Positions 9,362 through 36,600 of a stretch of 64,000 bases of DNA are shown piece by piece. A program made the position numbers and the translations under genes. Positions within the stretch are counted from its first letter, which is position 1; each line of letters opens with the position of its first letter. Source of the stretch: Heterotrichella gracilis (taxonomy: Eukaryota; Sar; Xanthophyceae; Tribonematales; Xanthonemataceae); contig JAULBX010026941.1 of assembly GCA_032358255.1 (NCBI GenBank), forward strand, positions 155,796 through 219,795. Reading direction: 5' to 3'. The notes under the pieces were generated by a model. It had not been told where the DNA came from, did no database searches, and saw only the letters and a program-made list of their open reading frames with translations.

Positions 9362-10301
9362 CCACTCCAATCTCGCCTCAATGTGGCTGTACTGTTGGCT
9401 GGTTTGGCCTTACAACGGCCAACAGCCACCGACAAAACATGCCAATCGGGAGCACCGTTGGCAAAATCAGCGCCGGTGTGTGCACGCATTGGTGCAACAC
9501 AAGGCAGTCCATGCCACACAAGGCACTGCAAGCAGCTGAGGAGCCCATAACTACTCCAATGTCGCGTTACTGCTGCGTGAAGTGCTGGTTGCTGTCCTGG
9601 GGGCCTGTCAACACCGACTTGGCAAAGTTTGTTGCTCAGGGGACGTGCTGGAGGCCATCCAAGCACCCTAGCAATACCGTGTGGCATGGCTCAGCAGCTC
9701 CAAGACCATGACAGCAGTGGACTTCTTTTGCAGCTTTACAGTCACAAAAAATTGGAACACCAACCAGGTATGTGCAGAGCAAGGTCAGTGTTTGCACTGG
9801 CCCAACCCTCTCAAGAAGGTGCCATATTCCCGCTTGATATTTCCTTGTGTGGAAATGGTTGCTGCACATGTCGTTTGTTGTTCGCCACAGTAATTGGCGT
9901 AATTGCAGTGAAACCAACATGGCTGATGGCGTAGATAGCAACCTGGTACCGCAGTAAGCTATATTACAGGCATTCTGACCTATGCGGTTTCATTTGTTAA
10001 TAACATGAAGGGGCATACATGCCTCTGCTGAAGACCTTCCACAATTTCTGACAAGCGCACAACCCACCCTCACCCCTTGTGTAGGATCCAAGTTGGGGGG
10101 GTGAGCACCACTCCCCCAAACACCATCCACCGGGCAAAGTTCCACCTGCCAGCCTCACCCTCCACGTCCTTGTATCACCCGGCCCCCCTACCCTCCAGCA
10201 GCAGCACAATACACCCTTCACCACGTCCCAACCCCCCAGCAGCAGTGCCAAACCAAGCTTCACCACTCCTCCTACCCTCCAGGCGCAGCACCACACACCC
10301 T
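9362..10301. other. convergent intergenic region, with tandem copies near the U32 stop
   Basis: No gene is supported here. Between about 10187 and 10305 a roughly 38-bp unit (CTACCCTCCAG...CACCCTTCACC) occurs at 10187-10222 and again at 10268-10305. The second copy runs into the last codons and stop of the U32 gene. The rest is 3' flank of both genes. Confidence 0.5.
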
Positions 10302-13300
10302 TCACCGCTTCCCAGAAGCAGCGGTTGGCTTCAGCAACAAGGCATGTTTCTCAGAGGTGACCGCCAGTGAGCCCACAGACACGCCGTGGGCATGCCCGTT
10401 TGCATCGGGCAGCGTCTTGAGCCAGCGCCAGGCGTCCTTGGCTGTGCGGTCGCCCAGCAGCACATCCCTGGGATTAAGAGGGCAGCACATGACGCATCAG
10501 AAAAAGTAGCTTTTCGGGCACTGGAAATAGGATTAAATTCAGATTATGTAGATATTTATAATCTTGGTTTTTAACAAAGAAAGTGCTAGTAGATGGGCAA
10601 CGGTTGAATGGGATTGGCGATGGGTGGGAGCAGTTGGGATGGGTGGCAAGTATGCTGGGGATGGGTGACAGGCTGTGCACTGACTGGAACTGGGGTTGAT
10701 AAGTACAGCCACATTTGCCACATGGACCTCACATGAACCCCACCATCTCACCCCATGTAGCACAATAGATGTAGAGCACATGCCACAAAAAAGGGGGGAA
10801 AGTGGACATCACGCGCCACCGTGCACTCCTCTTCAGCCCCCACTGTGACAATGGCCTCACCTGTACGCATCCAGCAGTGGGGCGACGACATGTGGCGGCT
10901 CATCCACCAGCTCTATGCGCAAGGTGGAGTAGCCAGCAGCGTGTAGATCACGCAAAAAGGGGAGGGCAGATTGGGCCTGCGGCAGGGAATTGGTGCAGTT
11001 GGGGTTACAATGTGGGTATGTATATGGGATAGCAGATGTATGTGCCCTTTGCCGTGTGAGGCAGGCAGCACTGTGCACTATGTGCAATGTTGTTCACTGA
11101 TGGGTTGCCATATTTAAGAGTAAATTACTGTAATGAGATAACAGCTAGCTCAATCTTTGCCCCGAATTCTGCGTGCTCAGGCCACCCTGTGCCTTAAATG
11201 CAGGCAGTGATGCATGTGTTCCCCCCTGATCATAACCCAAACCCACCTGTGCATTGAACACGGTGTTCCTGCACCCCATGCCTCAAATGCATGCAGTAAT
11301 ACGTTTCACCCATTATCATAGCGCACCTGCCCCTCAAATGCAGGCAGTGATGCATGTGTTTTCCCCTGATCGAACCCCGCACCCGGTACCCACCTGTGTA
11401 TTGAACACCGTGTTCCTGCACCCCATGTCAGCCAGGACCAGGTGGTCCTTCCCCTCCCCGTCCCTCACATTGCATGCATTGATAGATTTCCCCCCTGATC
11501 GTACCCCGCACCCAACCCCTGTCAACCAGCACCAGGTGAGCTTTCCCTCCCCATCCCTAAAATGCAAGCAATGTTTCCCCCTTGGACATACCCCATCCCC
11601 GGTGGTACCCACCTGTGCATTGAACACCGTGTTCCTGCACCCCATGTCTGCCAGGACCAGGTGGTCCTTCCCCTCCCCGTCCCTCAGATGCACCGCGTTC
11701 CCCTCGCACGGGTGCCCGCAGTCCTTGTAGCTGTTGCCGTCGCTCAGGAACCGGCAAAACACGCAGTGCTCGGTGTGGAAGATCGGCAGGTGGTGGTGGG
11801 CGATCAGCTCCAATCGGCTGGGATCGGGCAGGGATGATGCCAGAGCGGAGAGCTGATTGGAGTTGAGGTCGTGGGTGGGTGCCAGGCGGTCCAGGGAGGT
11901 GGTGAGGAGGAGGGTTGTGGATAGGGAGTTGGCTGCGTTGAGGGAGAAGTCTCCTTCCAGGCGGGGGATTGTGGCATTGGCCTCCGCCACAAATGCGCCT
12001 GCAGGGGAAGGGCAGATGTGGAACATTGAGGACTGGTGTCAATTCTGTCAGTGATGCGCAATACTAGATGCACGTTTGGGGGATATCAAAGACAAACTGT
12101 TCATTATTTGAAGTAAACTGCACAAATGAACAAGTGGGTGCGAGGGCAGGGAATATGGTGTACCTGCTTCTAAAATCAGTAACTTTATTTTATCACATGC
12201 TCAGCTGTTATGGCTCAACTGAATGGACTTGTACACATCTAAACCGTGAAAAGTTTGCATAATCCCCTGGCGCACACCCACCCACCTGGCCCACCCAGGC
12301 TCAGCAGCTGCTGCAGCATGCCGGTGCTGCGCAACAGCAGCGCATCCGCACCCAGCTTGAGGAAGAATAGCCAGATGCGCTGCTCATCGGGCTTGAGCAC
12401 GCGCGGGGTGGCAACCACCACCCGCTGCCCTGCGCCGCGCACCGCAGCCACCGCCTCCCTCAGGCCGTGCACCTCCAGGAAGTCGAGGACCACCTCGGTG
12501 AGCCAGGGCACTTGGAGAGCTGCGTCCACCTGTGGGAAAGGGGCCAGGCAGGCTTACATCTACTTTCCAAGTTGATATTCTGCACACCCAAGACTTCTCC
12601 AGTGGGGGCAGGATGGGTGTGGTGGTGGTACTTGGGGAGGGGATGCAGGGCACTTTCAGCCTCCCCCAGGCCATGCACCTCCAGAAAATTGAGCACAACC
12701 TCGGCACCTGAAGGGCTGTGTCAATGTACTTAAGGCAGGCTACCATGTATGAGTCTAGTAGCAACAATGTCAGTCACGTGCAAGTCGTGGTCATGCGCCC
12801 TTAAAACCCTGCACCCCACCCCTCCTACCTGCGCCTTGGTGCGACACAGCACCCGGATGAGCGGCTTCCCCCTCCCCCCCCCACGTCCTCCGTTTCCCCC
12901 CTTGGCCACCTCCCCATCCACCGCCTCCTCCCCCCTGGTGGTGGCTCCCGATTGGCCAATCTCACCCATGAGGCTCGGCAGCACAGGGTGTGGTGCGATG
13001 CCGCTGGTGGATGGGTGGGCTGTCCGGGCAGTGAGCAGCTCCTCCACTGCCATCCTCCTGGCTGCCTTGATCTCACTGGCTGGCAGGAACAGGCCTGGGG
13101 AAACAGGGTTTTAGGGTTTAGGGTTCAGGGTTTAGGGTTTGGGGTTCAAAGACCACGGGGCTCACGTGATCTCTCTGGCTGGCAGGAACAGGCCTGCAGA
13201 AACAAGGCTTTAGGGTTTAGGGTAGTAGGGTTTAGAGTTGAAAGGCTGCAGGCCCCACATGGATGCTGAGGACATGCATGGCAAATTTGCACAACACATC

Positions 13301-16300
13301 CTCGTCACATGCGATATGAAACAATGGAAACGTCATGTAAAAACACGATGACCCCAGGAAAAGCAAGTCACACAGACTTATCAGGCGGCAAGTGGTTCAC
13401 AACTTATGGGATCAGGTGGCTTTGAGTTGAAAGGACCACAGACCTGCCCCCAGATCCAGCCCCTCCACATCCAGGCTCCCAAGAGATAGCGAATTCTCGC
13501 CCAGCTGGCCCACCGCTTTGGCAAAATCCTGTGCAGTCAGCGCCCGGTTGCTCGCCTGCATAACGGCCTTTGTTGGCAGAGGGTTCACATGGAACTGCCG
13601 CTTGGCAGTGGGTTGTGAATGATAGGCATGCGTGGCCTGTTGCCATTGTTGGTGGATGCACCCGCGCATGATACTGGAAATGCTCCCAATTGCATGTCCG
13701 CTGCACTGATATGTCTGTTTGCCTGGGAGTTGCTATTGTCGGTGGATACACCCACGCATGACACTTAAATGGTATCTGCTTGCCTGTTGCAATGCCATCT
13801 GGCTGTGTACAGTCACCGAATGCCCTTGAGGGTCCCGAAGCGCCAATTGCAGTGGTGTCCCTACGCTGCCTGAGAGCGTCACGTCGACAGCCACTTTGCG
13901 CTTTTGCGACTCTGACAGGTTCTCGTAGGATTGGTGCAGGCGCGCCTCCAGAGTCGAGTCTCGAGTTTTCCACACCAAGTCCCCAACCTGCAGACGGGGA
14001 GCAGTCAACAGCTGGTGGGATCACCGCCATTGGGGGAAGCAAGCATGGTAGGAGTCAGGATGCAAAAAACTCTGATCCACCTTCGCTTAATTGCAGATCC
14101 AAAATTACCTCCTGCACCTGCACCCTCATGATATCCACCTGCCCCCCGCCAAACCCTTAACCCTAAACACCACGCACCTGCACCCTCCTGAGGTCCACCT
14201 GCCCCCTGCCAAACCCTAGCTGCACCACCCCTTGCTCAGCAGCAGGCAGCGCCGCCCCCCCGCCTGCCACTATGGAGTATAATGCTCCCCCTTGCTCCTC
14301 CTCCTGGGGGTTGCCGCTGTCAAACACCACACCATCGCCGCGCTTGATGGGGGACCTGCACACAAGGGGGTACACCAGGTGAATACACCATATCATCACG
14401 TACGGATGTATACCATTTGAGAAGGTTACGTGGTCTGGTGGAACAAATGTATGTAAGGTCAAGGGTCTCGAAAGCACTCTAGGGATCCTCGATCCTCCAA
14501 AGTTCTACAATGGTGGATGCAGTCTCACACTGTGCAGGAGCAAAATTCTGGGACATATTACTTGCAACAGAAAATTGTATGACACAGCAATATTACTGCG
14601 TGCAACTGTTGGAATGCAGTCTCCACTTCCCTCCAGCACCCCACCCACCTCAGCTCCACCCACACCCCCTGTGGCGCCACCTGGCCCACCCTGCCTATCG
14701 CAACCCCCCTGTGTCGGGGGGAGCGGCCTCGAACCAGCTCCTGGTGCTGGCTGCCACCCAAAAACCCTAGGGTAAGCCCGCTGTGGTGCTCGTCCTGACC
14801 ACGCGCAAACACCTGCCAGGGGTGGGGATGATGTATGCAAGTTGGTGAGTATTATTCAGCCTCCATTGTGAATGAAACCCTTGACCACTTGGATGAAGTT
14901 TCGGGGAGGAGCGTGGTTGCATATAAAGGCAAGGGTGAAAGGATATCAATAGGACTATTGTTATCTTAGCACCCTGGATAAAGGGCATTGTGGTATGACA
15001 AGGGGTGGAGCATGGTCTGAAATGAGGAGGAATTTGTGCAGCAATGCGCAGCCTGCAATGCAAGTGCTTGGAATGCAAATTGTATCTGACCCACGTGTGT
15101 GCTTACAACCTGCTGGGAATTCTACAGTGGGCGCATAGCCTTGTGGTACCCAAGGCTCTATAGCCCCTACCCACCCACCTGATGCAGGTCCGTCATTTGC
15201 TGGTTGGAGGGGGCTCCCCTCCCCTGTACAGGGCTTTTCCCCTGGATCTCTGCCCATGCTGCGTCCACTGCCTGACGGTACACCTGCAGGTGACAAGTGG
15301 CACCCTTAGCCCTAAACCCTAATTTAGGGCCTAAAATATTCAATTATTTCGAATGAGAATTTAAAAAATATTATCCAATAGGCAAACAGTGTTAGTTGGC
15401 CCATTCGGCAGCAAACATTAATCACAATTGAGCATCACAGGCATATCACCACTCTCCTACCCCCACCCTCACTCCCCCACCTGCGTTGTTATGGCCACAT
15501 ACTCTGGCCCCTTGAGCCTCCCCTCTATCTTGAAGCACGACACCCCTGCCTGGATGAGCTGGGGAACCACCTCCACTGCCATCAGGTCTTGGGGGCTCAG
15601 CAGGTACTTTATGTCACCCAAATCCTGCAGGGGGGGAATAAATAGTGGGTTGGCGATCGATAACAGGGGGTGGGAACGCGGGCCAAGGTATGTGGGTCTA
15701 CTATGCAATACTTCTACCCTAAACTACAAACAAATATCTAATCGAATTCTGCAAGGCCCCTCGCCAGGGTCCATCATGCCAGCATAAATTGAACCAGGCG
15801 CTGATGCAAAGCTCAACCCTAGCCAGGGGCGGTGCAAAAACTGTTCATATTTTAGAACCCTGGTGATTAGACGCTCAGCACACCCCTCCTCCTCAGCGCC
15901 ATCCTCCTCCTACCCCCTACCCGGATCTCGCCATTCACCACCAGCCCATAGGGCAGCCTGGGATTAGGGTGCAGGGTTTACCCAAACCCTAAACCCCTGC
16001 AAACCCTAGACCCTTCCTCCCCTGCCTTGCCTTCCCCTTTTCCCCCACCCCTACCCGGATCTCCCCGTTCACCACCAGTCCGTAGGGCAGCCTGCATGCC
16101 TGCGCACATTGCCCTCGGTTGGCGCTGCGTCCCCCCCACGCCTCTGAGGAGAAGCATTGCCCGCTGTAGGACACACACAGGGCGCCTGCGGGGGAGATAC
16201 GTATTAGCACTTTTTTCTGAATGGATGTCAAATGAAATGTAAATCCGCCAAAATCTCCACTTGCACCCCGGTGCCCGGTGGTATTAATTATTTCAAAAGA

Positions 16301-18139
16301 GCTGCTTGATGCCGCATGTGCAAGACTGACTGCTAATCTGCTCCGTTGCTGGATTGCATGTAATGAATCAAGTGACTAATCACGGCGCCCGGGTAGGGTT
16401 TTGCATTAGGGTTTGGAGTTAGGCACCTACCATGCACGAACGCCTCCACTTGCACATCGCTGCTCCGCCCCACTGCTGCAATCTCACCCACGCTCAGCTC
16501 CCGCCCCACCACCACCCGGGACATCCCTCGCTCCCGAGCGAACTCCGCCCCCTCCCCAGACGTGATTGACATTTGCGTTGATGCGTGGATGCGCAGGTGG
16601 GGGGCCACGCGCCGAATGAGCTCAACCACCCCAAGGTCCTGAGGGTTTTAAAAGGGGGTTTTTATGGGGGAATTTTTATCAGGGCCAACAAAACCCTAAA
16701 TTTGAAACCTTACACCATGCACCCACCTGCACAATCACCGAATCCACCATCCAGGTCCTGAGGTTTTCTAGAGAGGGGTGGGGTGGGGGCGGGGTATAGT
16801 TGGTGGCGCAATGGATGCAAATGTTTACAAAACCTGTCTACGTCATGTCACCTGTTCAGTACTTCAATATACTGCATATCATGTAACCTGTTCATGTTAT
16901 TACCACCTGCTCTGGTGAGTGGCAAGGGCCTGGCCCCCTCGCCCTCGCCCAACCCTCCATGAATGTGCTCATGCTGCACCTTTTCCCCTTTGTCCGATTC
17001 AGTACCATGACAAAAGTAGGACGATCGCCATTGTGCCCTAGCACCCTGCCCCGAGCATGCTCATCCACAGCGGCCAACTCCTCAACAGAACCCTAAACCC
17101 TAGACCCTAGACCCACCTGCACAATCACCGCATCCACGCCTGCTGCCGCTATGCGCCGCACATGCTCCTCCACAGCGGCCAGCTCCTCGTCGAATATGAG
17201 CACATTGAGGGTGACGTACCCCCGCACTCCCCTCTCGTGCAGGTATTGTACCACCCCTGGCAGCTCGTCAAGGGTGAAATTTGAGGCCCTGCGCGAGGGG
17301 AGGACAGTACGTGGTGGTGTGGTGGGGGGTGGGGGGTTGGGTGCTGCTGGTTGGGAGGATGTGCAGGGTTGCATACCGCCACCTCTATGATCCCCATTCT
17401 GGAAGGAAACCCCACCACCCATCACGCATGCGCACCGAAACCCCGCCCCTCCATCCCACCTGCAAGCCCCCACCCTCGCCCCCCTACCCTCCTCCCGACC
17501 CCTTTACTGTCCAACAGGTACTCCCCCTCCTCCCATCCAACCTTCCACCACCCACCTTGCACGCGCGTTGAAGCCCTCCACCCCAAAATACACGGCATCT
17601 GCTCCATTCTCAACACCCGCCCTCAGCTGCGGCCACCCCCCCGCAGGCGCCAGAACCTCCGGCTTGTGGGGTGTTGTGTGGGTGCCAGGTGGCGCCACCA
17701 CGTGGGCTGTGGGGCTGGCTGTGGCGTGGGGGTGCTGGGAGGGTTGCGGCGGTGGTGGTGGTGGGGTGGTGAGGGATGAGTAGAGTGCGGGGTTCTTGCG
17801 TTGGGTGGTGTCGGTGTCGGTGGCGGTGGGGGGTGGAGGGTTGGGGGTGAAACCTTGGCTGGGGTTTGAGCTGGTGCGGCTGGTGGCGCAGGTGGGTGGG
17901 AGGGAGAGGGTGGCGCGTTTTGAGGGGTGGGGGGAGCGGCGGGGGTTTGGAGGGGGGCGGGAGGGTTTTACTGCCACGGCTGCTGCCGCGCCTAGGGCCC
18001 TGCACCACCACGTGTACACCTGTCGATACCAATTCACTGAAGTATACAAAAGTGGGCAAGTTTGTGCTCTGCCCACACGTATCTGCCGTCTTGCACATGC
18101 ATGCATGCATATGTTAGTGGTGCAGTCTCGCGCATGCAT
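10302..18139 (-). CDS. peptidase U32 family protein (RlhA-like)
   Basis: Fifteen exons on the minus strand: 18139-17556, 17288-17117, 16638-16431, 16185-16055, 15624-15481, 15283-15179, 14812-14649, 14355-14178, 13987-13784, 13594-13444, 13094-12829, 12529-12286, 11998-11613, 10976-10861, 10467-10302. All phases match (about 1,072 aa). Diagnostic segments are PEVLAPAGGWPQLRAGVENG, ADAVYFGVEGFNAR, LRIHASTQMSITS, the Cys cluster CVSYSGQC...GRSANRGQCAQACRLPY, FKIEGRLKGPEYVA, and C-terminal EHCVFC with DCGHPC. Bacterial relatives (RlhA, TrhP) are Fe-S enzymes that hydroxylate rRNA or tRNA pyrimidines, so RNA modification is more likely than proteolysis. The long Pro/Thr-rich N-terminus suggests organelle import, but the exact start is uncertain. 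One intron (donor at 13783) uses GC instead of GT. Many introns contain copies of flanking exon ends. Confidence 0.9.
11246..11612 (-). repeat. degenerate copies of a U32 exon end and donor site
   Basis: The end of the U32 exon at 11613 (coding LADMGCRNTVFNAQ plus GT donor) recurs downstream in the intron: a long copy at about 11389-11470, a shorter one at about 11246-11290 and a diverged one at about 11514-11560. The 11389 copy still spells the same peptide and a CAG|GTGGGT-type donor. This intron is therefore a ladder of decoy exon ends. Confidence 0.8.
12601..12735 (-). pseudogene. broken duplicate of U32 exon 12286-12529
   Basis: On the minus strand this intronic stretch reads IDTALQVP, then EVVLNFLEVHGLGEA, clearly a copy of the real exon start VDAALQVPWLTEVVLDFLEVHGLREA. 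Alignment by eye shows a 10-bp deletion after ALQVP, so the copy is out of frame and should not be used as coding sequence. Confidence 0.8.
13106..13236. repeat. telomere-like TTTAGGG tracts flanking a duplicated exon start
   Basis: Stretches at 13106-13147 and about 13200-13236 are runs of TTTAGGG and close variants. Between them, at about 13166-13200, lies a copy of the U32 exon start at 13094 (TGGCTGGCAGGAACAGGCCTG), including an acceptor-like CTGCAG. The whole block of about 60-70 bp, exon edge plus telomere-like repeat, looks duplicated in tandem. Confidence 0.8.
14114..14170 (-). repeat. copy of U32 exon end (14178) with CCCTAAA spacer
   Basis: About 43 bp at 14114-14157 repeat the exon end at about 14175-14218 with few mismatches (CCACCTGCCCCC core and the CACCTGCACCCTC donor side). 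The copies are separated by TAACCCTAAACAC. Confidence 0.8.
15911..16014 (-). repeat. copy of U32 exon end (16055) with telomere-like spacer
   Basis: Bases 15911-15960 repeat 16047-16094, the end of the Cys-cluster exon with its donor, at roughly 90% identity. The peptide RLPYGLVVNGEIR is preserved. The intervening 15961-16014 contains AAACCCTAAACCC and related units. Confidence 0.85.
16724..17113 (-). repeat. two partial copies of U32 exon 17117-17288 with CCCTAAACCCTAGACCC
   Basis: About 17052-17083 repeats the exon interior at 17156-17190 (CACAGCGGCCA core). About 16724-16752 repeats the exon end and donor (ACCCACCTGCACAATCACCG). A telomere-like CCCTAAACCCTAGACCC tract lies at 17093-17113, directly next to the real donor. 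Confidence 0.75.
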
Positions 18140-18892
18140 GCATGCATATACACGTGTTGCTCCTGTTTCGCAACTGGTTCGGACCTGGTGTATCCCTGCG
18201 TTTGCCCCATGACGCTCCGCATTGCACTGCCGTCAATTCGCTAACTGAGTTGGTGTGTGTACTATGCCTGCGGCTGTTCAGGCACCCATGGCCAGCCGTC
18301 GCACAAGTGCGCAAGGGTGGATATATCCATGTGGTGCGAGATACAAGCTGACCACTATGTATTCTTTGTAGAACTTGGTGTTGCTGTAATTGCAGTGTAA
18401 GAAAGGCAGTCGGTTTTGGAAGCAGAGCTTGCCAAGTGCTGGTCCCAGTCTTACGGTACGCTAAGACTTACTCGCCCACCTTGTTGCTGCAAAGTCAACC
18501 TGTGGCGGTTGCGTGCAGCGGTTCCATATGCATATGCTGCCGTCTTTTCGAGGGCAAGCACTTGTGCGTCAAGCTAGTTGGGTGCACTTCTTGGCGTACG
18601 CAGGGAAGTGGGTTCACTGTGAACAGGGGGTGAAAAAATATGGTGTGGCTCTGGGCACAAGAAAGCCTGGCTCTGCCACTTTTGTGCAGTGCTTGCTGGT
18701 TTCTATGGTAAAATAGCTGTTCCTCAACGAAACACACGTAAACGTCTTTCCTTGTCCCTCTCCTTGTCCCTCTCCTTGTCCCACACAACACCTCACTGGC
18801 GTTCTAAAAGAGGTTTGCTACCTAGTTGCTGTACGTACAACGGCTGGCCAAGCTGTTTAGCCACTTGCGCTGACCCATGGCCTCTGTGTGCA
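18140..18892. promoter_or_regulatory. divergent promoter region, U32 / 2OG-like genes
   Basis: This gap separates divergent starts. Two strong CATGCATGCATATG-type elements sit at 18096-18113 and about 18133-18151, around the proposed U32 start. A third, in the opposite orientation, is at 18978-18990 in intron 1 of the plus-strand gene. A triple CTCCTTGTCCCT repeat lies at about 18750-18780. Confidence 0.5.
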
Positions 18893-21800
18893 ATGCCTCT
18901 GAGTGACGCCCAAGAGCTGCTGAGCCAGGTAGGATGCGGCCAGAACCCATCGCACATCCAGCGGCATGTGGCCAACGCATATGCATGCATGCCCGAAACA
19001 CCCACAAACTCATGCGCACTCTGAACCAACCCACCAAAGTATAATCTGTTCCCTGGCAGGATGCCCTTGTTGGAACAACCACGTTCCCTGTTTTGGGCGC
19101 TTTGCCCACATAAGTTCATCACCGCCCTCATCGCCCTCTGGCATTCGCCCATCCATGGCTGACTTTGACAAACTCCCCCTTTCCTCAGGGCCAGCTGAAT
19201 CAGTGCCAGTCGGAGCTGCAGCCGCTGGTCCCTTTGGCTCAGCAGGCGTACCGACGCCAGGTGGCGGCCCCACAGGAGGACGGCGAGGGGTTGGCGTTTG
19301 AGTACGCAGCAGCAGTGGGGGAGACTGCATACCTACTGGTGGGTGTACGCAGGAACGGAACTTGTGGCGCATGAATGTGGTGGGTTTCCATGGAGTATGC
19401 AGGGCACGCGGGGCATTCCATTGGTGCGCCATGCTGCCCGGGAAAGCCATGGACCATGCGCACGTAATCCAGACACACTTGAAATTCGTCAACATTACTT
19501 GAGCATGGACGCACTATCCCCGCATATTTCCTGAGAATGTTTGTATAAAATTTAGTAATGATGATTACATGTATTCTTCAGCATTGTTATCGGCACATAT
19601 GTGCAATCTATTTTACGTCATATATACTCGCCAAATTTTGGTGCTTGCAAACCATAATTGTAATTGTTACCTTACTTGCAATACCCCAGCAACCAAGGCG
19701 TAAGCAAATTTTCAAATCACCATGTGTCAAAAAGTGCACACCCCGCAGGCGATCGAGTTGTGCAAGCAAGGGGACTATGACAACGCTGACACAGTACTGG
19801 GGTGGCTGGGGTGCCAGTACAGGTTGTCATGTGGGGTATGGCAGGCGTGCTTGGAAGGGGCTGCCCATGCGCCACCTGGCACCTCAACAGACCAACATGC
19901 ATGCCCAGGAGGCGGCGTTGCAAGCAGTGCGCCGGTTGTGTGTCTGCCGGATGCTGTGTCAGGTGCGTTGGGGGGTGGAGGGCTGATGAAGAATATTTAC
20001 AACCTCCCTCCATATGTTTGAACGCTTTGCCTTGGCACAGGGTGTGGCATCTGAAGGTTGGTGCTTTAACATGTGGGTATCGCATATAAATGTAGAGTAT
20101 ACAAAATGCAACGAAAAACAGCCCTGATTGGCGTGGCATTTTGTTTGTGCACCATAAGCTTCGGCCCACAAGGACAATGAGCAGTGCCCAGCGGTGGACA
20201 AAATCCAGAGTTTTCCAATGCAATGCCTTCAACGCCGTATTGCGCAACGCTATCCAATGCAATCCAGGACACTTTAATGCTGTGCGCAATGCTACTCTAT
20301 GCATTCACACAGACGCATGTGGGACGCTGAAACATGTGCATGACTCCCCACCCAACCCCGCAGGGCGCCTGCTGGATACCCTCAAACGGGGTCTCGCCCC
20401 CCATGCGTCCTACTGGGAACAGCATGCATATGGCGCGCCTGACACTCCCTTCTTCTCGTATTACTACCCCTTGGTACGAAGGGTCCAGGGTTTAGGGTTT
20501 TGCACTGCCATGTGCCCTTCTGGATGCAGAGTGCATACAGCGCGCCTGACGCCCCAAGGTCCACTTACCTAAGCTGGAAATCATGGCCTAAATATTGATA
20601 CGCATCTGATACCTGCAATGATAATGTATTGTGAACCACCACTGCCAGTTTGCTGCCCCAGCACCCTAGGGCGCCCTCTTCCCCCTTGCCACGCAAATCC
20701 ATTTCCACCTTGATGACCTTCCCTCCCCATTCCACAGAACCAACCCCCCTCCAATGCAATAGAGCAGGCTGCCCAGCACCTCCACACCCAGCTGCGGCGC
20801 CTGCCTGGGTGCGCCGGGGGTGTGACGGGTGCCTGTGGGGTGGAGTGGTGGGCGCACACGCGAGCGCCTGGGGATCCCCACCAGCTGCACTTTGATGTGG
20901 ATGAATCCCTGCTGCGCCAAGGGGAGGATGCATACGAGCTGAAGCACCCGGTGCGTGGCAGCAGGATGCCTCGAGTGCAGTGGGAAGGGGGTAGGGGGTA
21001 GGGTGGTGGGTGTTTGAAAGGGCACCTTTTTGGATGCATGTGGCAGCTCATTGAACACTTGTCATTGACCAGGAGCTAGCTGGCAATAGCCACGTGGCAT
21101 CACATGCATCCCGTGCATCCCCACCAGCGTGGCACCCGTCAGTCACCCCTCCTTTTCCCAACACCACCCCGCACTATCCACCTATTCACACAACAGTTAA
21201 CACATCCACCCTTCCCCTGCAGCTCCTCAGCAGCGTCCTCTTCCTGTCGCCATGTGGCGGACCGACACTTGTCATTGATCAGGAGCCAGCAGGCGCGCTA
21301 GGTCAAACAGGGTGGGCGGTTGCGCCAGCTGGCGGTCAGCTGTTGGCCTTCAGGGGGAGCCTGCTGCATGGGGTGCTGCCAGGTGAGTGGGGTGAGAGGT
21401 GGGGTGGTGGTTCATGAATAAACAATTGGCTGCAATTGTTGTGCAGGCTGTTTTCCTTAGTTTGTGGCAGGTGCCCGTAACATGACAAGGCGGTTTGGCA
21501 CACTCCAAACTCATTTACCATTCTCATTTAACTTTCAAATGTCCACCTAAGTGAAGGGCTACAAATTTTTAAGGACCAGGGGTGCCCGATGCTGATCATA
21601 ATTATTTTGAAGAACCACGTCCCAAAACCCCTGGCGCAGGATCTGCCGCGCCCTCATCTGACCCAGACAGATCCTACCAGACACGCACCACGCTCATTCT
21701 GGCATGGTGGGGGCCCGAAATGCGCCCTGCATGTGGGACATCTGGCCTGGGTCCTGGGCGCATGGCTCCCCATCCATCCACAGCGTCAGCTGGCAGCTGG

Positions 21801-22412: not shown

Positions 22413-22823
22413 CGGCTGGGATTGCCTTTTGTATGTTTGTTTGTGTGTTTGTTTGTATGTCGCTGGCGGGTGCTCAGTTGAACCAAACTATTTATTTGAT
22501 TATTTAGCCAGTTGACTGTCGTGTGTTGAACTTGCACGTATGTGCTGCAAAAAGGCAATTTAGGTATCTCATGATGTACCCAACATATTAGTAGTGACCA
22601 CTGCCAGCAATACCATGCAGACCTGTAGCAGGTACTCCTCTTCTAGACAATGCATGACGCTGAATCAAGTGTGTTTGCCGGCATCATGTGCGGGGTCACC
22701 ACCAAGTGTTTCTTCGCTTTCCTCCTGTCGTATATGTCCATGATTGCAACGGTAAATGATTATATTCAGTAGTGAAGAAATAAAATGAAATGGTGTCACA
22801 CAGTGCCGCCGTGTGTGGGGGCG

Positions 22824-23586: not shown

Positions 23587-23853
23587 TGCTCAACTAAATC
23601 GACCCAACCAGGCTGCAACTAATTTCCACCCCTCTGGCATTCATACAAGACCCCACAAAATGCAAGAGCTGTACTTCCTGGCGCACACGCCGGTGCTACC
23701 CCATACCACTCCTTCCTAAAGCGCAGCAACTCAACCCAAAACTGTGCTGCATCCCCCAGCCCATGCACTGGCCCGTCCATACCCCCGCCCACCTGAGGTG
23801 CATCCCCAGACCCACGCGCAGGCCTTCTCCCTCCGCACCCGCCACCCCACACC

Positions 23854-23917
23854 CTAGTCCACCCATCGTTCCTGGCGCACTTGCGACCACATCACCCGCA
23901 GGGCCACGCCATCCAGC
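23854..23917 (-). repeat. copy of the PP2C-like C-terminus including its stop
   Basis: The real gene ends ELDDVALQVFSPKCVRQGRWAD then TAG at 23935-23937. Immediately downstream the sequence reads ELDGVALRVMWSQVRQERWVD then TAG at 23854-23856, separated by AAACCCTAAACCC. The same terminal segment, stop included, has been duplicated and has drifted. Confidence 0.85.
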
Positions 23918-23934
23918 TCGGTAAACCCTAAACC

Positions 23935-26361
23935 CTAGTCCGCCCACCGGCCCTGGCGCACGCACTTTGGCGAGAACACCTGCAGCGCCACGTCATCCAG
24001 CTCTGCAAATGTTGCGTTGCCCGCCATGATTGCCTGGCGTTTGGTGTCCGCCTCGATGAAGCTGCGCTCCTTGAGGGGGGCATTGAAGAAGGTGGCGTCC
24101 TTGTACAGCTCGCGGGTGCCCTTGGTGCTGTCCTTCAGCTGTGGAGAAGAAAAGGGAGGGTTTAGGGTTTAGGGTTCAGGGTCGCAGGTCGTTATCCAGC
24201 TGTCCATTGGGGTTGAGGGTCACACCTTGTCTTCCAGCTTTGCCAGTAGTGTTCAGGCTCTAGGGTTACACCTTTTGCCCTCTAGCCACCTCCTCCATGA
24301 GGGTTCAGGGTCTAGGAGTAAGGCCTAAATTGAACCTCCCACCTTGTCCTCCAGTATCCTCCATTAGAATCTAGAGTCACCCCCAATATCCAGCTCCACT
24401 GGGGTTTAGGGTTCCATCTTGTCTCCCTTCTCCATTAGGGTTCAGGGTTCAGGATTCGGGCCTAAGGTTTAGGGTCCACCTTGTCCTCCATGATGTCCCC
24501 CACCCGCAGCTTATCCATTAGGGTTTAGGGTCACAGCTTGCCCATTAGGGTTTAGGGTCCCACCTTGTCCTCCAGCTTTTCCATGATGTCTAGGGTCTAG
24601 GGTCACATCTTTTGCCCCCTAGGCACATTTCCCATTAGGGTTCAGCGTTCAGGATCAGGGCCTAGGGTTTAGGGTTCCCACCTTGTCCTCCAGCTTCTCC
24701 ATGATGTCCCCCACCCGCAGCTTGTCCATGGCCAGCACCGAGGAGATGCGCGCCATCTTGACCTTCTGGTAGTCCACCGCGGCGTTGTTGGCGGGCTGCG
24801 TCAGGAAGTCGTCCCAGGTCTTTTGCGGGAACCCAAACGAGTCGGGGTTGCCATTGTTCACAGGCTCAAAGGAGTGGCCCAGCCCGCTGGTGGCAAAAAC
24901 AAAGAGGTCGCTGGCGGAGGCCGTGACCATCCCGTAGCGGAACTCGGGCGCGTCCTCCCCGTATTTGGTGGGGGAGAGCGCGCCCTTGCCCCACTTGGGC
25001 TTGTCTCGTTGGGAGTCGTCCAGCTGGGTGAGGGAGATGGCGCGCAGGTCGTTGAGGTCGGTCTCGTGCGGCGCGGTGAGCGGGACCCACGCCTTTTTGT
25101 GGCTGTTGAACCAGAAGCACTCCACCTGGCCCACAAAGAGGTACACCAGCACCACCTCCTTCTTGTTGAGCACCACCATGAAGTGGATGATGCCGGAGAT
25201 GGAGTCTGTTATGGGAGCAGAAAGGAGGGTCAAGGGCACATGGAAACGACCAGACTTCACCAGAGCTGCACTATTTACCGTGCTGGCAGTGCTGACTAGA
25301 GCTTGTTGTGCTGCAGCACGATGCCCACGGTAAAATGGTATACCTAGCTGCACACAATGTCTACAGGTATGGTGCAGAGCCTGCACAGTTCAGACCTGCG
25401 CGCAACAGTTGCCGCCCAGTTGAACAAGCCCCAGATACTGGTACTGCTCTCCACGTGCTGTACCCATACCTGTACACAAGGCTACCTGAAATGCGCACAA
25501 CATGCCGAGTTGAACAAGCGCCGGCGCACCCTTCTGCTACTAGCCACCCACTTCCCCCTGACCTTGAGCTGCTCTCACCCCCCCTACCCTACCCCAGTGC
25601 CCACCCACCTGTTTCCCGGAACTCCAGCAGCTTGATGTGCGCCGCAATGGCCGCAGTCTTCAGCAGCTCAGCCACCCTGCGGGTGCTCTTCAGGTTTTTG
25701 GTGCCGTTCTTCAGCACCCTGCGTATCTCTGCCAGGGCCACGTGGCTGGAGATCCACCCAGAGGCGCTGTCATGGCCATGCCCCTTGAGGGTCGCCCCAA
25801 AGGCACAGGCCCCAATCACCTCGTTGAAGAAGGCGTCCGTGTTGGGGTGCTTGATGGAGACTAGCTCACCGGAGGTCTGCTGGACCGTCTTGGGGAAGGT
25901 GGTGGTGAGGGTGCCTGGGCAACAAAGCACAAGGTGGGTGCCCGTATGGAGTATCTCTACAGGGCATCCCATCCTGGAGAACTAGTGCAAGATCCTCGTG
26001 TGAGGCGTGGAGTAGAGGAAGCAAAAGGACGCAACGACCTTCCCAGGCTTGAACCGTGCTGTTTGGAAGGCACACCAAGCGCACCTGCCACATAGGCGTT
26101 GGGAGTAGCCCATAATCGTTGCAATGCCTTTATGGGGCTTAGCTTGATTTCGTTGTTGGTGGAGGAGGTGTGGAGCTTGACGTTGACGTAGACAGCGTCC
26201 AGGCGGTTGAGAAGAAGCGAGTGCGTTGTGGATTGCAGGAGGTGGGTCAGGTCTACATCGGGCAAGTTCGGTGTTGGCGAAATGTACGACCCCCCCCGTT
26301 GCACCAGCTCAGCGTGGGTCTCAAACTCTGGGCCTTCAGGCACAGACGCGCACATACCCAT
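23935..26361 (-). CDS. degenerate PP2C-like (PPM family) protein, MGxC N-terminus
   Basis: Four exons on the minus strand with matching phases: 26361-26085, 25914-25609, 25205-24682, 24138-23935 (436 aa). The N-terminus MGMCAS fits N-myristoylation (Gly2) with possible palmitoylation (Cys4), as in some plant PP2Cs. The order of segments resembles a PP2C fold: GACAFGATLKGHGHDSAS at the usual FDGHGG position, LVYLFVGQVECFWF at the VGDSR strand, DLFVFATSGLGHSF at the ASDGLWD strand, and LDDVALQVF at the DDITVVV strand. The metal-binding acids expected there are largely missing, so if the assignment is right it would be a pseudophosphatase. The family call is my inference from pattern alone; the gene itself is well supported. 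The last intron is full of copies of the preceding exon end. Confidence 0.6.
24139..24681 (-). repeat. intron made of exon-end copies and TTTAGGG repeats
   Basis: The end of the PP2C-like exon (CTTGTCCTCCAGCTTCTCCA on the plus strand, at 24682-24701) recurs in diverged form at about 24225, 24345, 24480 and 24560. Between the copies are GGGTTTAGGGTT-type runs (about 24160-24180, 24400-24475, 24520-24560, 24640-24680). This is the densest example in the window of exon-edge copies mixed with telomere-like units. Confidence 0.85.
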
Positions 26362-30618: not shown

Positions 30619-32265
30619 ATGCCCGGTACTGATAGGAAACTAGCTTTGGACGTCGGATCATGGTTTGCCAACGTGGCGACCTCTGTGGCAATCGTGTTTG
30701 TCAACAAGGTGCTCATGCAGCAGTCTGGGTATAACTTCCAATTTGGTGAGTCCTGCCCCGTTCTTGCTGACACCCAGGTCGCAACCCAGCTTAAAGGCCT
30801 AGCTCATCTCTACCCGTATGTTGCAGGGACAACCCTCTGTGGGCTTCACTTCCTGACGAGTGGGCTGTTCATGTGGATATGCAAGTCTGTTGGGCTATTT
30901 CAGGGGAGTGGCAAGCTGCCCTTGCCAGGTGAGTTGGAGTGGTGAAAGGTTTGATGGCTGCTGAGCTTTACAGCCTGCTGCTGGACTTACAAGAGGCTTT
31001 ATTGCAGACTTGATCATGTTCACGGTCACGGCCAACACTTCAATTGTTAGCCTGAACTTGTCGCTCATGCTGAACAAAGTCAGCTTCTACCAGGTACGCG
31101 AGTTCCTTGCTGTCCTAACAGTTGTGCACAGCTGCTTTGCAACTAACCAACGGGTTATGTTGGCAGATTGCAAAGCTGGCGATCATCCCTTTCTGCTGCC
31201 TTATCGAGGTATTGTGGTTGAAAAGGACGTTCTCAAAGATGGCTATGGCAGCAATTGCCACCGTGATGGTGGGCGTGGCTGTAGTGTAAGTGGCACCTCT
31301 GGATGCTTGCACAGTACCTCCTTCTGCTTGCCTGGGTCTTCTCACTTCAAGTTCTTGTATAGGACTGTGGATGACCTGAGCTTGGGAGGGCCTGTCTTGG
31401 GAGTGGCTATTGCCCTCATCTCCATCGTCGCAAGTGGGCTGCAGCAGATTTTCTGCAGGACTTTGCAGCAAAAACACAACTTGTCATCCAGGTATGGCTT
31501 GCACTGTGGGGCCAGTGGTATCTAGCTGTCTTTTACCCACTACGTAGTGATGTGTACCAAAACGCCACCCAAATGTCATTCAACTTTTGATCACCTTGGT
31601 AAAGTCCCTTTCTGTGCCAACGCAGTGAGCTGCTCGCTGTCACGGCACCAACTCAGGTAGCTTTCCTTGATGCTATTCACAGCTGCCGGATCATTTTATA
31701 GTGGTGATCCCATGCTAACTATCCACTGTACTACTTGCAGGCCTGGACCCTACTCCTGGTTGGACCATTCCTGGACAAGCTCATCAGCAAGCGCTGGGTT
31801 TTCCAATACGAGTACAACATCCCTGCGCTGACGTGCCTGGCTGTGTCTTGTTCACTGGCTGTGCTGGTTAACATGTCCCAGTACCTGTGCCTAGGAAGGT
31901 TCTCTGCCGTATCTTTCCAGGTACGAGCCTGCAGCATGGCTTGCGTCATGTCTTTTCTTTCCCTTGCTCGCGCCTGTTCCTTAAACAACTGCAGCTTGGA
32001 TCACTGACAACCTTGCCTGTGGGACCTGCAGGTGATGGGCCACGCGAAAACAGTGTGCGTGCTTGTTGGGAGCTTCCTGTTCTTGCATGACCTGATCGAC
32101 AGCAAGCAGCTGGCTGGTATGGTACTAGCAGTGGCGGGCATGGTGCTCTATGGGAGCCTGCAAACAGGGGCCGGCAAGCAGGCGCCTCCTCCTCCTCCCA
32201 AGCCTGAAATCGAGCGGCTGCTCAAGAGCACTGAGCTGGATGCCCAACAGCCGTCCAAGGCTTGA
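30619..32265 (+). CDS. nucleotide-sugar transporter (TPT/NST family, UDP-galactose/rhamnose-type)
   Basis: Eight exons with matching phases: 30619-30745, 30827-30928, 31008-31093, 31167-31285, 31363-31491, 31626-31656, 31741-31920, 32032-32265 (335 aa, the usual size). It is a polytopic drug/metabolite-superfamily carrier: VGSWFANVATSVAIVFVNK in helix 1, SIVSLNLSLMLNKVSFYQ in the middle, ASGLQQIFCRTLQQKHNLSS, and the terminal VMGHAKTVCVLVGSFLFLHD, which is typical of the plant UDP-galactose/UDP-rhamnose/UDP-uronate transporter group. Expected role: antiport of a UDP-sugar for UMP across the Golgi or ER membrane to supply wall or glycan synthesis. A Pro-rich linker and short cytosolic tail follow helix 10. 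Substrate specificity cannot be read from sequence. Introns here are short and clean, with no exon-edge copies. Confidence 0.88.
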
Positions 32266-33607
32266 GGGAGCTGTTTGGGGCAGCGCGGCTGTGCTCTGCG
32301 GTAGTCAACTGCACGAACAACTGGCACGGAGCAGTAAATTATTCATTGGCCGTTGACAGAGCGTCTCTGGCAGGTGGTTCAAGCAGATGGTCCAGCTGTG
32401 CAGCGCAGCACAGCACAGGAGCAGTGCAGCGATGCGCCGGCGGCCTTGTTGTAGCGCGCCTTGCACATTGGCACCAGGTGGTGGCAGCGCCTCATTCCAG
32501 TTACTGCGGGTGGACCAGCAACCTTACCGTGCAAGGCATCGCAGGGCAATCCTGTCGCCAAGTTTCCCCTTTTTTGCTTTGACCTGCCACTTGTGTGTTG
32601 GCGAAATGAAGCAGGAAGTTCTTTCCAGGGTCAGCTTGGGGCTGCAGATTAGCATTGGGTGACATAGGTGTAGTGGAGGACCAACCTACAGCAAGTCATC
32701 GTCAACCAGCATCCCAATCAATAACTGCAGCGCACTGGGATATCTCATTAAGCTTATACTCATACGACTGATTTTACTTTGCCCACAATGCCAAGCCCTT
32801 TATACGCTTTTTCAACAATGCCACTGCGCTGCTACACCCTTAGCAAGGGTCTTTACCCCAGAACTCTATGTTGAACAGACTAGTGGGCCTTAGGAAGACC
32901 TTGCGGTGGGTGCGGATGTGCTGTAGTTAAGGACTGTTCCATTCAATGCCCTGCAGCAGCACGTTTTGCGAGGTATTTACAATTTCTGTGCTTGTAGTAC
33001 TGCTTCTTGCAGCCTGGGGCTCGCATTTAGCTACAAACTTGACAAGGTAGAATGTAGACCCTTACGTTTAGTTACAACTTGTAGGCTCAGAATTCCGAAT
33101 CGGGGGTTTTAAAATTTTATATTGTATAATAACTGTCAGTGATTTGGTAGTTATTACAAGTAAAAAGTCATTTATTACCCCTGTAACTCGAGATGATGAT
33201 CAGATTCTGCCAGAAAGAAGGTAATGAAGGGAAAACACACACAGGCAGACTCAGGTGGCCACTGGCTTGCCCTTAATCTTTGCTTCCAGTCCACAAAAAA
33301 ATTGAATCCATCAACCATCCCCCGGCCCTACATTTTGCCAAACGGTGTCACGTGCTTCACCCAACCCCTCTGGGGCCCCAGGCCTTCATCCGAGATGAGG
33401 TAATCATCTCGCCTATCGCCCGTTTCATACCCTCGGGTGCGCCTCACCCCATCCTCACCCCGCGCTTGCCCCCCGAGCATTCATCTCCTTGACGACCCAC
33501 GCCTTCGTCCCAGCCCAGCACTGGCACTCCCCAACACCCACCCAATCCACCACCATACCCGGTCCTACATTATTTTGTACACCCCCGCAGCAGCACACCC
33601 TCCCCCC
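32266..33607. other. convergent intergenic region with degenerate TFB2 C-terminus copies
   Basis: This gap separates the transporter and TFB2 3' ends. Most of it shows no gene. Near the TFB2 end there are diverged copies of that gene's last codons (see the repeat at 33380-33515). The 32900-33250 stretch is AT-richer and featureless. Confidence 0.5.
33380..33515 (-). repeat. copies of the TFB2 C-terminus and stop
   Basis: The real gene ends KRVIKEMKARGAGAG then TGA at 33608-33610. At about 33450-33505 the minus strand reads WVVKEMNARGASAG followed by TGA, an obvious diverged copy. A third, weaker copy is suggested at about 33380-33435. Confidence 0.8.
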
Positions 33608-36600
33608 TCACCCCGCCCCTGCCCCCCGCGCCTTCATTTCCTTAATCACCCGCTTCATGTCCTCGTGACCCTCTGCGCGCGCCGCCAGGCGCTGCTTGGC
33701 GGGGTCGTCCCAGAGCCAGGTGCCCGCGCGCCGCGCCTGCGCCACCGCCCCCTTGAACAGCGCCGGGAACTCAAAGTTGTCGTACAGCACCGCGCGGCTG
33801 TGGCGCACGCGCTGCAGCTCGCTCTGCCACAGGCGCACCTGGTCGGACACAACCTGCACACAAAAAAAGTATAAATAAAATAAAATAATAATAATTGAGT
33901 AAGATAATGTTATTGCCATCAGCACTTTGGAAGCAAGTCGTGCAGCTGCATGCTGGGCTTTGGGGCACGCGCTGCAGCTCGCTCTGCCACAGGCCAGCCT
34001 GGTCAGCCATGACCTGCATGAGGTGACTAATCATAATGCCAATTCTTTTATTCATTCTCATACTTGATAGATTTGTTTCTTTAGAAAACAGCCCAAATTA
34101 CATTATAAACTCCTGCTACATACCGCAGGCACCACCGGCACCCTCCCCGCCACCTGCGGGTGCGCGTGCTGGCGCAGGTAGGTCACCACCTGGTCCGCCG
34201 CGATGCCGCTGGCCAGCGCGCCGTTGATGCTCTCGCGCGTGATTGTGCCCACAAACAGGTTGGGCAGCACGCACTCGCAGCGGATGAACAGCTTGAGGAT
34301 GGCGTGCTGCAGGGGGGAGCTGGTGTAGGCATACACCTGTGTGGGCACAAAAACAAGAATAGTCAAGTATACAGTCGTATTCCTCAGTGAACGTTGACGG
34401 GGGATCTAGCCAGGTGCTGAATCTCAGGAAAATGCAACTTCAAACCAAAAAGCTGATTTTTAGTCAGGCCAAACAATGCCTTGTGCCATCTCACTTTGAT
34501 GGAGTAGTTTAAAACCAAAAAAAGGTTAACAAGTTGGCAGTACATTAGTGGAAAGAAACCACTAGAGCATATAGCTCCAATTCCTGCTCAGGTTGAGGCC
34601 ACACGCACCCTGAAGTTGGTCTCGACAATCACAAACCCCGCAGTAGCGTCCCCCTCCCCGCCTGCCGCCACCCCCCCACCCCCCGCTGCCAGCGACGTCG
34701 CCAGGTGCGTGGGCGCGAACCACACCCCGCCGGTACCCATGAAGGGTTTCAGCAGGCCCAGCTGCGCCATGTGGCAGGCTATGGAGCGCTGCAGGGGGTC
34801 CAGGCTGGCAGCGGCCCAGGGTCGGCCCAGGTCCCTAAACCCTAGCTGCAGCAGGAAGCTAATAACCGAGGACAGCTCGGCGCCTGGAGGAGGGAGAGGA
34901 TATTCAGTAGGAAGAAAACAAAAAAGATACAGCTTCTTCAAGATGCACACAATAAACTTAACACAGAGATTACACAATTGTGCTTGTGGAAGAGAAATTT
35001 GTTGTACACATACTCAGCTTGTAACCACCGGCTGACATGGAAACAAAGCAAACCAACACATGTGACGCAAGTTCCTGGTCCAATGTATCGGCTGTCTCCA
35101 GCAGGGAGGGAGCAAGCCAGGCCGGAAATGTGCAAAACAGGGCACATGCTTAGCAGCTTAATGGCAAATATCTGACACAAGGCACGGTATGTGGGGCATC
35201 GTGCCCATCCATCATGTACGCAACCCAGACACTCCTCCCTTTCCTGCTTCATCCGACCCCCAACCCCTAACCTCCCCACCTTACCTGACTTTTGCTCTGC
35301 CCCCGTGATGCACTCCCAACATGTGCACTAGCACCCGTGTATCTCCCCTGTTTTGATAACCGTCCCCAACCCCCATGTCCCCCCCACCTGACTTTTGCTC
35401 TGCCCCCGTGATGTACTCCCTGAGCAGCAGCCACAGCTGATTGCCTGTGTGCAGCAGCAGGAACTGGAAACCAGACTCTGTCACAGATCGGCCATCGCGC
35501 CTGCATGTAGAAGAACCGCATGATCAGGGTGATGCATGTACGCACACCTTGGTAGCGGGGGAATTGGAGGTGGAAAGCTGCAGCATGGACTGGAGCATGC
35601 TTACATTGGATGCCCATGCTTCAGATGAGAACCACATGTCATCTGTGTACACTATTAGAATATAATAAGCTTGGTGCGTAAAATACCACATGTGCAAGAC
35701 TGCTGCTAATCTGGCTGTAATGTTGGAATGCATGTAACCAACTAACTAACTAGCTAACTAATTAACTAACCTACCCTGTTGAGACGAGGCCCGCACTCAG
35801 CAGGAGCTTGTCCACTTGCAAACCAGCATCCCGACCCTGCGCCAGGTTGCACGTGCTCATTGGCCATGCTTTATAACTGAATGAGGTGCAAGCATGGCAG
35901 GCACATGGTCGTTGGCAGGGTCAGTAGTAGGGCTGTCAGCCCGCCAAGTTCCCCTCCCACGCTGACAGCAAGCCTGACACCCCTGGTTCGCATCATCACC
36001 ATGATGGATGTGATGCCAGCATTGACATTCAGCAAGGGCTTTTATGTCACGACATGATACCCCCCAGCCATGGATCTCAGGTCACTCAAAGATTCGTCCG
36101 TCACTGTCAAGAAACTCCTCAGCTAGGGTGGTCAAAAGACCATAAGTTTCCGGAGGGTTTCGGCTGCGTACCAGGAATGACGGCAAGCCTGGCGGGCTCT
36201 TGGCAGCACCCACCAGGTACAGCTGGAGCGCCTGCCACACAACAACCCTGGCATTAGAATTCATGCATGAAAACAAATGTCACAATTTAACTTGGACATC
36301 AACCCGTTGGCAGCACTTTTCACACTTCCCAAACCCTACATGAATACCCTGCATTTCGGCCCCACACCCCCCCACATCCCTCACTGTGCCTGTGTGTATA
36401 CCCCGCACAAACTCTAGATGAATACACTAGGTACATCCCCCCCGCACCTCCCATTGTGCTTGTGCGTATGCATCTAGCTCCTGCTGTGAGGGTGCCGATG
36501 CCTGGACATGAGGGGGGGTGTCCTCGTGGAGGGGGTCTCCCCTGTACCAGGCAAACAAGGGACTCAGGCGATAAGGATCCTAAACCCTAAAACCTTGACC

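Follow-up and report, generated by a model that had tools for sequence, protein, structure and literature searches.

Direct duplication of coding edges, often with telomere-like filler, as a probable route of intron growth in the alga Heterotrichella gracilis

Small tandem duplications at staggered DNA breaks have been described in human and mouse cells, where they need CST-Pol alpha, a complex that also fills in telomeres (PMC8355091; this and the other papers cited here are drawn on in part), and natural insertions of 10-1000 bp in rice have been interpreted similarly (PMC7407515). Telomere repeats are also inserted at mammalian double-strand breaks, the site being duplicated in 4.6% of the rodent cases and 16% of the primate ones (PMC2246262), and intron gain through break repair or tandem duplication is an established idea, one that concerns new introns (PMC3443670). 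Here we describe short, diverged direct copies of exon edges that lie in the adjacent intron, often separated from the original by telomere-like tracts (TTTAGGG or CCCTAAA units), in a 64-kb stretch of Heterotrichella gracilis DNA (the window, C443:155796-219795) and in 270 kb from other contigs, C2:1-200000, C46:100001-140000 and C24:100001-130000, of the same assembly (68.5 Mb in 903 contigs; the genome encodes light-harvesting proteins). Its light-harvesting genes mark a photosynthetic alga; one of them, CP26-like, comes nearest to the structure chains 7pi0 (Dunaliella), 9is4 and 6kac (Chlamydomonas), and a search for the photosystem core family gave no match. Our reading, which we hold to be probable though far from certain, is that recurrent small direct duplications of coding edges, made during the repair of staggered breaks and frequently accompanied by telomere-like filler, extend the introns of this alga at their ends.

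The copies resemble the CST-Pol alpha and rice duplications in being direct, short (median 61 nt) and either tandem or with inserted sequence, and they have the form expected of staggered-break tandem duplications, namely direct, adjacent and tens to about 100 nt long. They differ in their preference for coding edges and in the telomere-like filler, neither of which is mentioned in the parts of those accounts used here. Like the interstitial telomeric sequences of Nergadze and colleagues, the algal tracts are short, telomere-like and placed at putative break sites, some with a site duplication; unlike the mammalian insertions, as far as that account is drawn on, they crowd exon edges, and 19 of 52 copy-bearing edges have one nearby. 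Staggered-break fill-in and telomere insertion, if combined, would give the edge-filler-edge arrangement seen here. Intron gain at double-strand breaks shares with our case, so far as its description is used here, the direct repeats at introns and the logic of a staggered break, but the algal introns are enlarged at one end and the repeats do not flank the whole intron. As in tandem exon duplication, exonic sequence and a splice site are repeated within an intron, yet unlike that process and mutually exclusive exons, 0 of 52 algal copies hold an entire exon. Introner elements form one family across introns, whereas these copies match their own neighbouring exon; outside telomere tracts, introns of different genes resembled each other in 28 pairs (22 introns), a separate dispersed repeat being among these. 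Polymerase theta makes templated insertions from patchy templates in both orientations, but within 400 bp we found 0 inverted local copies against 52 edges with direct ones (contiguous palindromes being excluded by the script). Among the titles and abstract openings listed by a literature search, with most subscription journals outside it, none described edge-copying or telomere-like tracts at splice sites.

Across the 334 kb sampled, 1092 exon edges are predicted, and 52 of them, 28 donors and 24 acceptors, have a copy in the adjacent intron, four with more than one recorded pair. Counted instead as loci, under a separate rule that is not interchangeable with the edge rule, exon-intron pairs account for 58, exon-exon for 9 and other kinds for 15, and just 5 are intron-intron, where random duplication leads one to expect 44-143 intron-intron loci. 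With the window set aside, having been chosen by a reader, there remain 45 of 882 edges, and 48 exon-intron against 4 intron-intron loci; the 70 kb held out from gene-finder training (the C46 and C24 pieces) gives 11 against 0. The original prediction had proposed that copies are enriched at exon edges over random duplication, and junction enrichment is present both in the 334 kb and in the held-out DNA. Recognisable events make up 4.2% of the sampled intron DNA (7.1 of 169 kb), and if the sample is typical, extrapolation from 52 in 334 kb gives about ten thousand recognisable events genome-wide.

These counts come from a local self-search at E<=1e-4, which found 26 high-complexity pairs in the window, 50 in C2 and further lower-complexity pairs. 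Loci and edges were counted at offsets of at most 400 bp and complexity above 0.45, and some pair tables (the 45-row and 42-pair sets below) use a stricter 0.7. Exon edges are ab initio predictions of a generalised hidden Markov gene finder, self-trained on the window and C2; an initial gene model over-split exons and was replaced by a second version. The gene finder gives 126 exons in the window and 383 in C2, a donor consensus of AG/GTGNG and an acceptor consensus of TGCAG/G (slash at the junction), a median exon of 113 nt (window and C2 model) and, between well-supported exons, a median intron of 316 nt. Five of six predicted proteins (four of them trimmed) scored above the Pfam cut-off, as Tfb2, Peptidase_U32, ABC1, decarboxylase and phage-type RNA polymerase. 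In the diaminopimelate decarboxylase (DapDC) prediction, residues 44-455 (412 of the 456 submitted) align with a chloroplastic DapDC at E 2.9e-190; the model has four edges with copies, by sequence all in the enzyme part, and it extends past the enzyme, probably with a second gene fused. Copy-rich genes are the ABC1/UbiB-like kinase, an RNase III-like gene, the phage-type RNA polymerase, DapDC and U32, and some many-intron genes have no copy-bearing edges, such as a SET-domain-like gene at 52448-63109 (RNase III and SET being names read from the sequence).

The anatomy of the copies is consistent. Over the 52 edges they measure 24-200 nt (median 61) at a median offset of 116 nt, with spacers of at most 5 nt in 5 cases, 6-30 nt in 8, 31-160 nt in 38 and longer in 1, and some spacers contain a further copy (C2 4678, for example). 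Exon-intron pairs are mostly about 72-96% identical (5th to 95th percentile), and because most copies thus diverge by 4-28%, an assembly artefact or assembly duplication is unlikely. In the 15 edges whose best pair has at least 89% identity, the unit is mostly exonic in 14, with medians of 40 nt of exon and 7 nt of intron. At least three copies form an array at one edge at 11.2-11.7 and 24.1-24.7 kb of the window, at C2 4678 and at C46 37843. In 42 of 45 rows the copy stops 45-594 nt from the far intron end (three further rows come from faulty gene-model pieces at 11.4-11.6 kb), so existing introns appear to have been enlarged rather than new ones made.

In the window, the copies and the genes that carry them are as follows, with percentages giving identity.

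10302..18210, minus strand: U32 peptidase gene, modelled as 10302-16750 and 16892-18210, host of most window copies
10184..10314, minus strand: U32 stop-codon edge 10268-10314 and its copy 10184-10230 (85%)
11241..11692, minus strand: donor-edge array of the exon ending at 11613, with copies at 11241-11283 (95%), 11385-11470 (96.5%) and 11513-11566 (78%)
12453..12704, minus strand: edge (12453-12498) of exon 12286-12529 and intronic copy 12659-12704 (85%)
13060..13239, minus strand: acceptor edge 13060-13139 and intronic copy 13159-13239 (85%), telomere-like tracts in both units
13639..13765, minus strand: pair 13639/13729 (86%), the sole intron-intron locus of the window
14114..14217, minus strand: donor edge 14174-14217 and intronic copy 14114-14157 (91%), with a 16-nt telomere-like spacer
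15914..16094, minus strand: U32 exon end and donor 16048-16094 and intronic copy 15914-15960 (91.5%)
16705..17188, minus strand: two pairs, 16705-16747/17095-17137 and 17047-17083/17152-17188 (both 86%)
21055..21294, plus strand: exon 21265-21294 and intronic copy 21055-21084 (90%), the junction outside the aligned part
23844..24009, minus strand: stop-codon edge with a tandem copy (75%), gene 23935-26355
24139..24729, minus strand: array in intron 24139-24681, copies of the upstream exon end and donor (self-search)
33453..33651, minus strand: TFB2 stop-codon edge 33606-33651 and copy 33453-33498, 3' of the gene (83%)
33796..34018, minus strand: TFB2 acceptor edge 33796-33858 and intronic copy 33956-34018 (86%)
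35258..35420, minus strand: TFB2 donor edge 35364-35420 and intronic copy 35258-35317 (87%)
36330..36470, minus strand: weak pair at an edge of exon 36448-36541 in the TFB2 model (scoring 49.5 when aligned, against a shuffle maximum of 28)

Ten of these places, near 11.4, 12.7, 13.2, 14.1, 15.9, 17.1, 24.2-24.6, 34.0, 35.3 and 36.4 kb, had been read by eye as diverged direct copies: nine pass E<=1e-4, and the tenth, at 36.4 kb, does not pass but exceeds all of 300 shuffles. By the edge rule the window counts only 7 of 210 edges, below the reading by eye because of gene-model errors. The identities proposed for U32 and TFB2 are borne out by Pfam (for U32, Peptidase_U32 at E 2e-61 and DUF3656 at E 1.9e-10, using 669 residues of the 769-residue prediction for 10302-16750), whereas the gene at 23935-26355, first labelled PP2C-like, matches nothing at E<=0.001 in Pfam, where DUF6143 comes closest at 0.03, and nothing at E<=1 in PDB. 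That copies always straddle a splice junction proved too strong, 13639/13729 being intron-intron and 10184/10268, 23844/23925 and 33453/33606 lying at stop codons. A weak copy suspected in the alpha/beta hydrolase gene (287-3382) was absent at threshold; that gene has just a telomere tract (window 692-715) about 10 nt past a donor.

Several window sites show how copies and tracts interleave. The spacer of 15914/16048 has TTAGGG units and then CCCTAAA units; here the open frame into 16054 resembles U32 by our reading, whereas the gene finder chose the copy 15914-15960. A telomere-like tract separates 17047-17083 from 17152-17188, and at 12453/12659 homology runs across the splice site if a gap is allowed (by eye). 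In the array at 24139-24681 the nearest copy is 95.7% identical (46 bp) and farther ones 84-88% over short stretches, with telomere-like units between. Other repeats lie nearby. A contiguous palindrome of about 65 bp (window 36723-36787, 87% self-complementary) lies within the TFB2 model, and a dispersed repeat of about 50-90 bp (82-88%) occurs, by eye, in introns of different genes at window positions of about 16300-16385 and 35690-35770, and in introns of three C2 genes (c2_28, c2_30 and c2_60); it is possibly a small non-autonomous element. At C2:135568-135770, beside a predicted gene end, there is a tandem 102-bp unit (94%) with telomere-like units.

If the inner copy of each pair serves the gene and the outer copy does not, the two should differ in a characteristic way. 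Mismatches by codon position are 10.5, 10.4 and 19.2% (42 pairs, window and C2), the pattern of a neutral copy about 10% diverged plus synonymous change in the exon, and gaps not divisible by three occur in 26 of 52 best alignments; together these features make the outer copy look neutral and the inner one coding. Among 43 copies with an aligned splice dinucleotide, GT or AG is retained in 38 (GT 22/23, AG 16/20), near the roughly 80% expected without selection at 10.5% neutral divergence. The further suggestion that such events make introns grow and leave decoy splice sites agrees with these data, in that every event lengthens the intron and GT or AG is mostly left behind.

The telomere-like units are genuine, as had been proposed: the window has 16 two-unit matches (at most one mismatch) per 64 kb where 0.00 are expected, and exact three-unit matches number 834 across the 68.5-Mb genome, in both orientations. 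Their share in the window and C2 is 0.98% in introns, 0.30% in non-genic DNA and 0.03% in exons. In successive 30-nt bins from the exon edge the tract fraction is 2.3, 1.9, 0.2, 0.7 and 0.7% (window and C2) and 4.1, 4.2, 1.4, 0.4 and 1.2% (held-out 70 kb), so that tract density in introns is roughly three- to tenfold higher in the first 60 nt from an exon edge than farther in, in training and new contigs alike. A tract often starts within about 15 nt past a donor or ends about 10-50 nt short of an acceptor. Using base rates taken from the 334-kb sample, the telomere-like tract CCCTAAACCCT is 2.6-fold over-represented genome-wide before TGCAGG (892 matches against 73 with a scrambled hexamer) and 5.1-fold after CAGGTGNG (372 against 43); an additional donor motif has 32 genome matches, its sole control, the reversed pattern, being uninformative since it destroys the telomere unit. 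The claimed co-occurrence of TTTAGGG with copies is clear: a tract lies near 19 of 52 edges with a copy and near 58 of 910 without one, in introns of at least 100 nt (Fisher p 1.6e-9). Tracts also occur in 11 of 45 spacers against a mean of 1.7 in random-intron controls that were unmatched for exon distance (0 of 500 as high). Tract orientation, counted by hand and examined for the polarity that telomerase might leave, gives no clear signal (12 CCCTAAA to 10 TTTAGGG at donors, 12 to 4 at acceptors), and the TTTAGGG orientation at an acceptor would contribute AG dinucleotides. Filler provides part of the splice site now used, by the gene model, at C2 189606 and C2 181168; these two young pairs and C24 28245 have an edge-tract-edge form that would imply tract insertion. 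An AT-rich filler at C2 29870-29940 had no other match in a genome search.

We propose a model in which one end of a staggered break lies within coding sequence and its other end, in most cases, 0-30 nt beyond the boundary; both sides would be filled in and then joined, and extra DNA, often telomere-like, would frequently be added at the join to give edge-filler-edge. A duplicated unit that crosses a splice site or stop codon would leave the gene intact through its inner copy, and its outer copy would turn into neutral non-coding sequence, in most splice-site cases with a spare GT or AG; repeated rounds at one edge would build arrays. We infer the staggered breaks, with their fill-in and end joining, and likewise the source of the filler and the notion that events arise in coding DNA with interior ones purged by selection.

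Stop codons bear directly on what is being recognised. Copies lie at 10 of 77 predicted stops in genes with at least 300 coding bases, of which at least five are solid, including U32 and TFB2, and several may be model errors (C46 39687 resembles a donor); starts have 2 of 77. The five trusted cases are window 10184, 23844 and 33453, C2 21271-21647 and C24 21815. Since these edges share the same anatomy, the relevant boundary looks like that of coding sequence and not of splicing alone. The idea of break repair at exon-intron borders therefore keeps its support from edge concentration and telomere association and loses its exclusivity for splice junctions. Candidates for what targets events to coding edges are composition, methylation, RNA-DNA pairing and the fragility of earlier tracts.

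One possible answer, though we lean against it, is that coding DNA, irrespective of its function, is prone to nicking because it is GC-rich or methylated, and that its edges are simply where lesions are tolerated, an account of targeting only that is compatible with the repair step. Exons are indeed richer in GC than introns (62.5% and 51.6%), copy-bearing edges are slightly richer than others (0.641 against 0.616, p 0.009), and the involvement of stop codons fits. But the GC contrast across the junction does not differ between copy-bearing and other edges (p 0.31), nor does skew across the junction separate them, and the five intron-intron units have a GC of 0.36-0.55, which argues against a pure GC effect.

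It has also to be asked whether telomere-like tracts arrive first near edges, break as fragile sites and so provoke the duplications, which would concern the trigger and again be consistent with the repair step. In the part of the literature drawn on, interstitial telomeric sequences are called breakage-prone (PMC11626172), tracts lie near the 58 copy-less edges mentioned above, and some duplicated units contain the tract itself (13060/13159 and C46 33192). However, telomere units are missing from the spacer in 9 of the 15 youngest pairs and C2 4678 is a tandem array without one, and we regard this order of events as doubtful.

An edge bias might instead be produced by survival. Some bias is expected, because selection purges duplications within exons and because a coding copy keeps a pair recognisable for longer, so random small tandem duplications could seem to prefer edges merely by persisting there; the codon-position rates agree that constraint on one copy slows the decay of the pair, and survivorship also predicts copies at stop codons. 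To quantify this, random duplications were simulated, kept if wholly intronic or across one edge, evolved at observed rates and detected with the same search program. Rates for the conservative nulls below were calibrated on a tandem gene copy in C2 (differences at 33 of 554 intron sites and 3 of 82 third positions, with 8 intron gaps); this copy, C2:76007-77083 and 78086-79155, is 91% identical including introns and gives a clock of 6.0% for introns and 3.7% for third positions. Uniform tandem duplication gave 264 exon-intron to 228 intron-intron detections and 375 to 391, and 181 to 390 with filler. Fitted to observed ages, these nulls expect 49-143 intron-intron loci, and conservative nulls, in which non-coding DNA evolves 1.6 times faster with more indels, expect 44-102; 5 are seen. 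Young loci, 10 exon-intron (at least 92%) against 3 intron-intron (at least 86%), also depart from the conservative nulls, whose expected intron-intron shares are 61% and 74% (P 0.006 and 0.0002), and the intron part of young units is shorter, at 7 nt against 40 and 22 nt. Telomere tracts, which can be detected without a coding copy, crowd edges too. Survivorship as the whole explanation is therefore unlikely.

Retention of copies or tracts for a splicing benefit might be read from tracts that often begin within about 15 nt of a donor and from the dinucleotides kept in 38 of 43 copies, but about 80% would be kept anyway, donors carry both tract orientations (12 to 10), half of the alignments have frame-breaking gaps and identical structures occur at stop codons, which together make it very improbable. 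Least probable of all is that these are new introns arisen by duplication or break repair within exons: direct repeats are a hallmark of such gains in what is used here of PMC3443670, but gain needs a repeat at the far intron end, and the copies stop short of it in 42 of 45 rows.

The duplication of coding edges by staggered-break repair is thus the reading we prefer, and a number of observations weigh against it. The break model is read from the form of the copies. The order of arrays is mixed, the nearest copy being the most similar at 24.1-24.7 kb and the least at 11.2-11.7 kb, and events are clustered by gene (0 of 2000 shuffles as dispersed); copies of conserved exons may stay recognisable for longer, which could account for part of this. 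The mostly exonic young units, 14 of 15, go only modestly beyond the conservative nulls (69/99 and 43/61). Among the 15 youngest pairs just 6 have telomere units in the spacer, tracts are plentiful in the non-genic DNA of C46 as well (1.23% against 1.91% in introns), and the tract comparisons above have their own limits, in the exclusion of introns shorter than 100 nt from the 910 copy-less edges and in the unmatched exon distance of the spacer controls. Five intron-intron units are a small number, and with 15% of intron windows reaching 60% GC, composition may contribute. There is, finally, at least one visible gene-model error, at 15.9 kb, where an intronic copy was called as an exon.

Why introns should be well above their minimum size is a wider question. 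In Chlamydomonas and its relatives median introns are 198-343 bp, and the part of the account drawn on here describes the advantage of such length as unknown (PMC8226300). We speculate, and hold the idea only loosely, that breaks in this lineage fall preferentially at the borders of coding DNA, whether splice junctions or stop codons, owing to coding chromatin or to RNA-DNA pairing that ends at the boundary, and that telomere-type repair there would make introns grow from both ends and be a main source of intron DNA. Data already in hand for any annotated alga would allow a test for the pattern of edge copies. Events of this kind place decoy splice sites beside genuine ones, and, where the origin of intron DNA is largely unexplained, they make a directional source of it visible.

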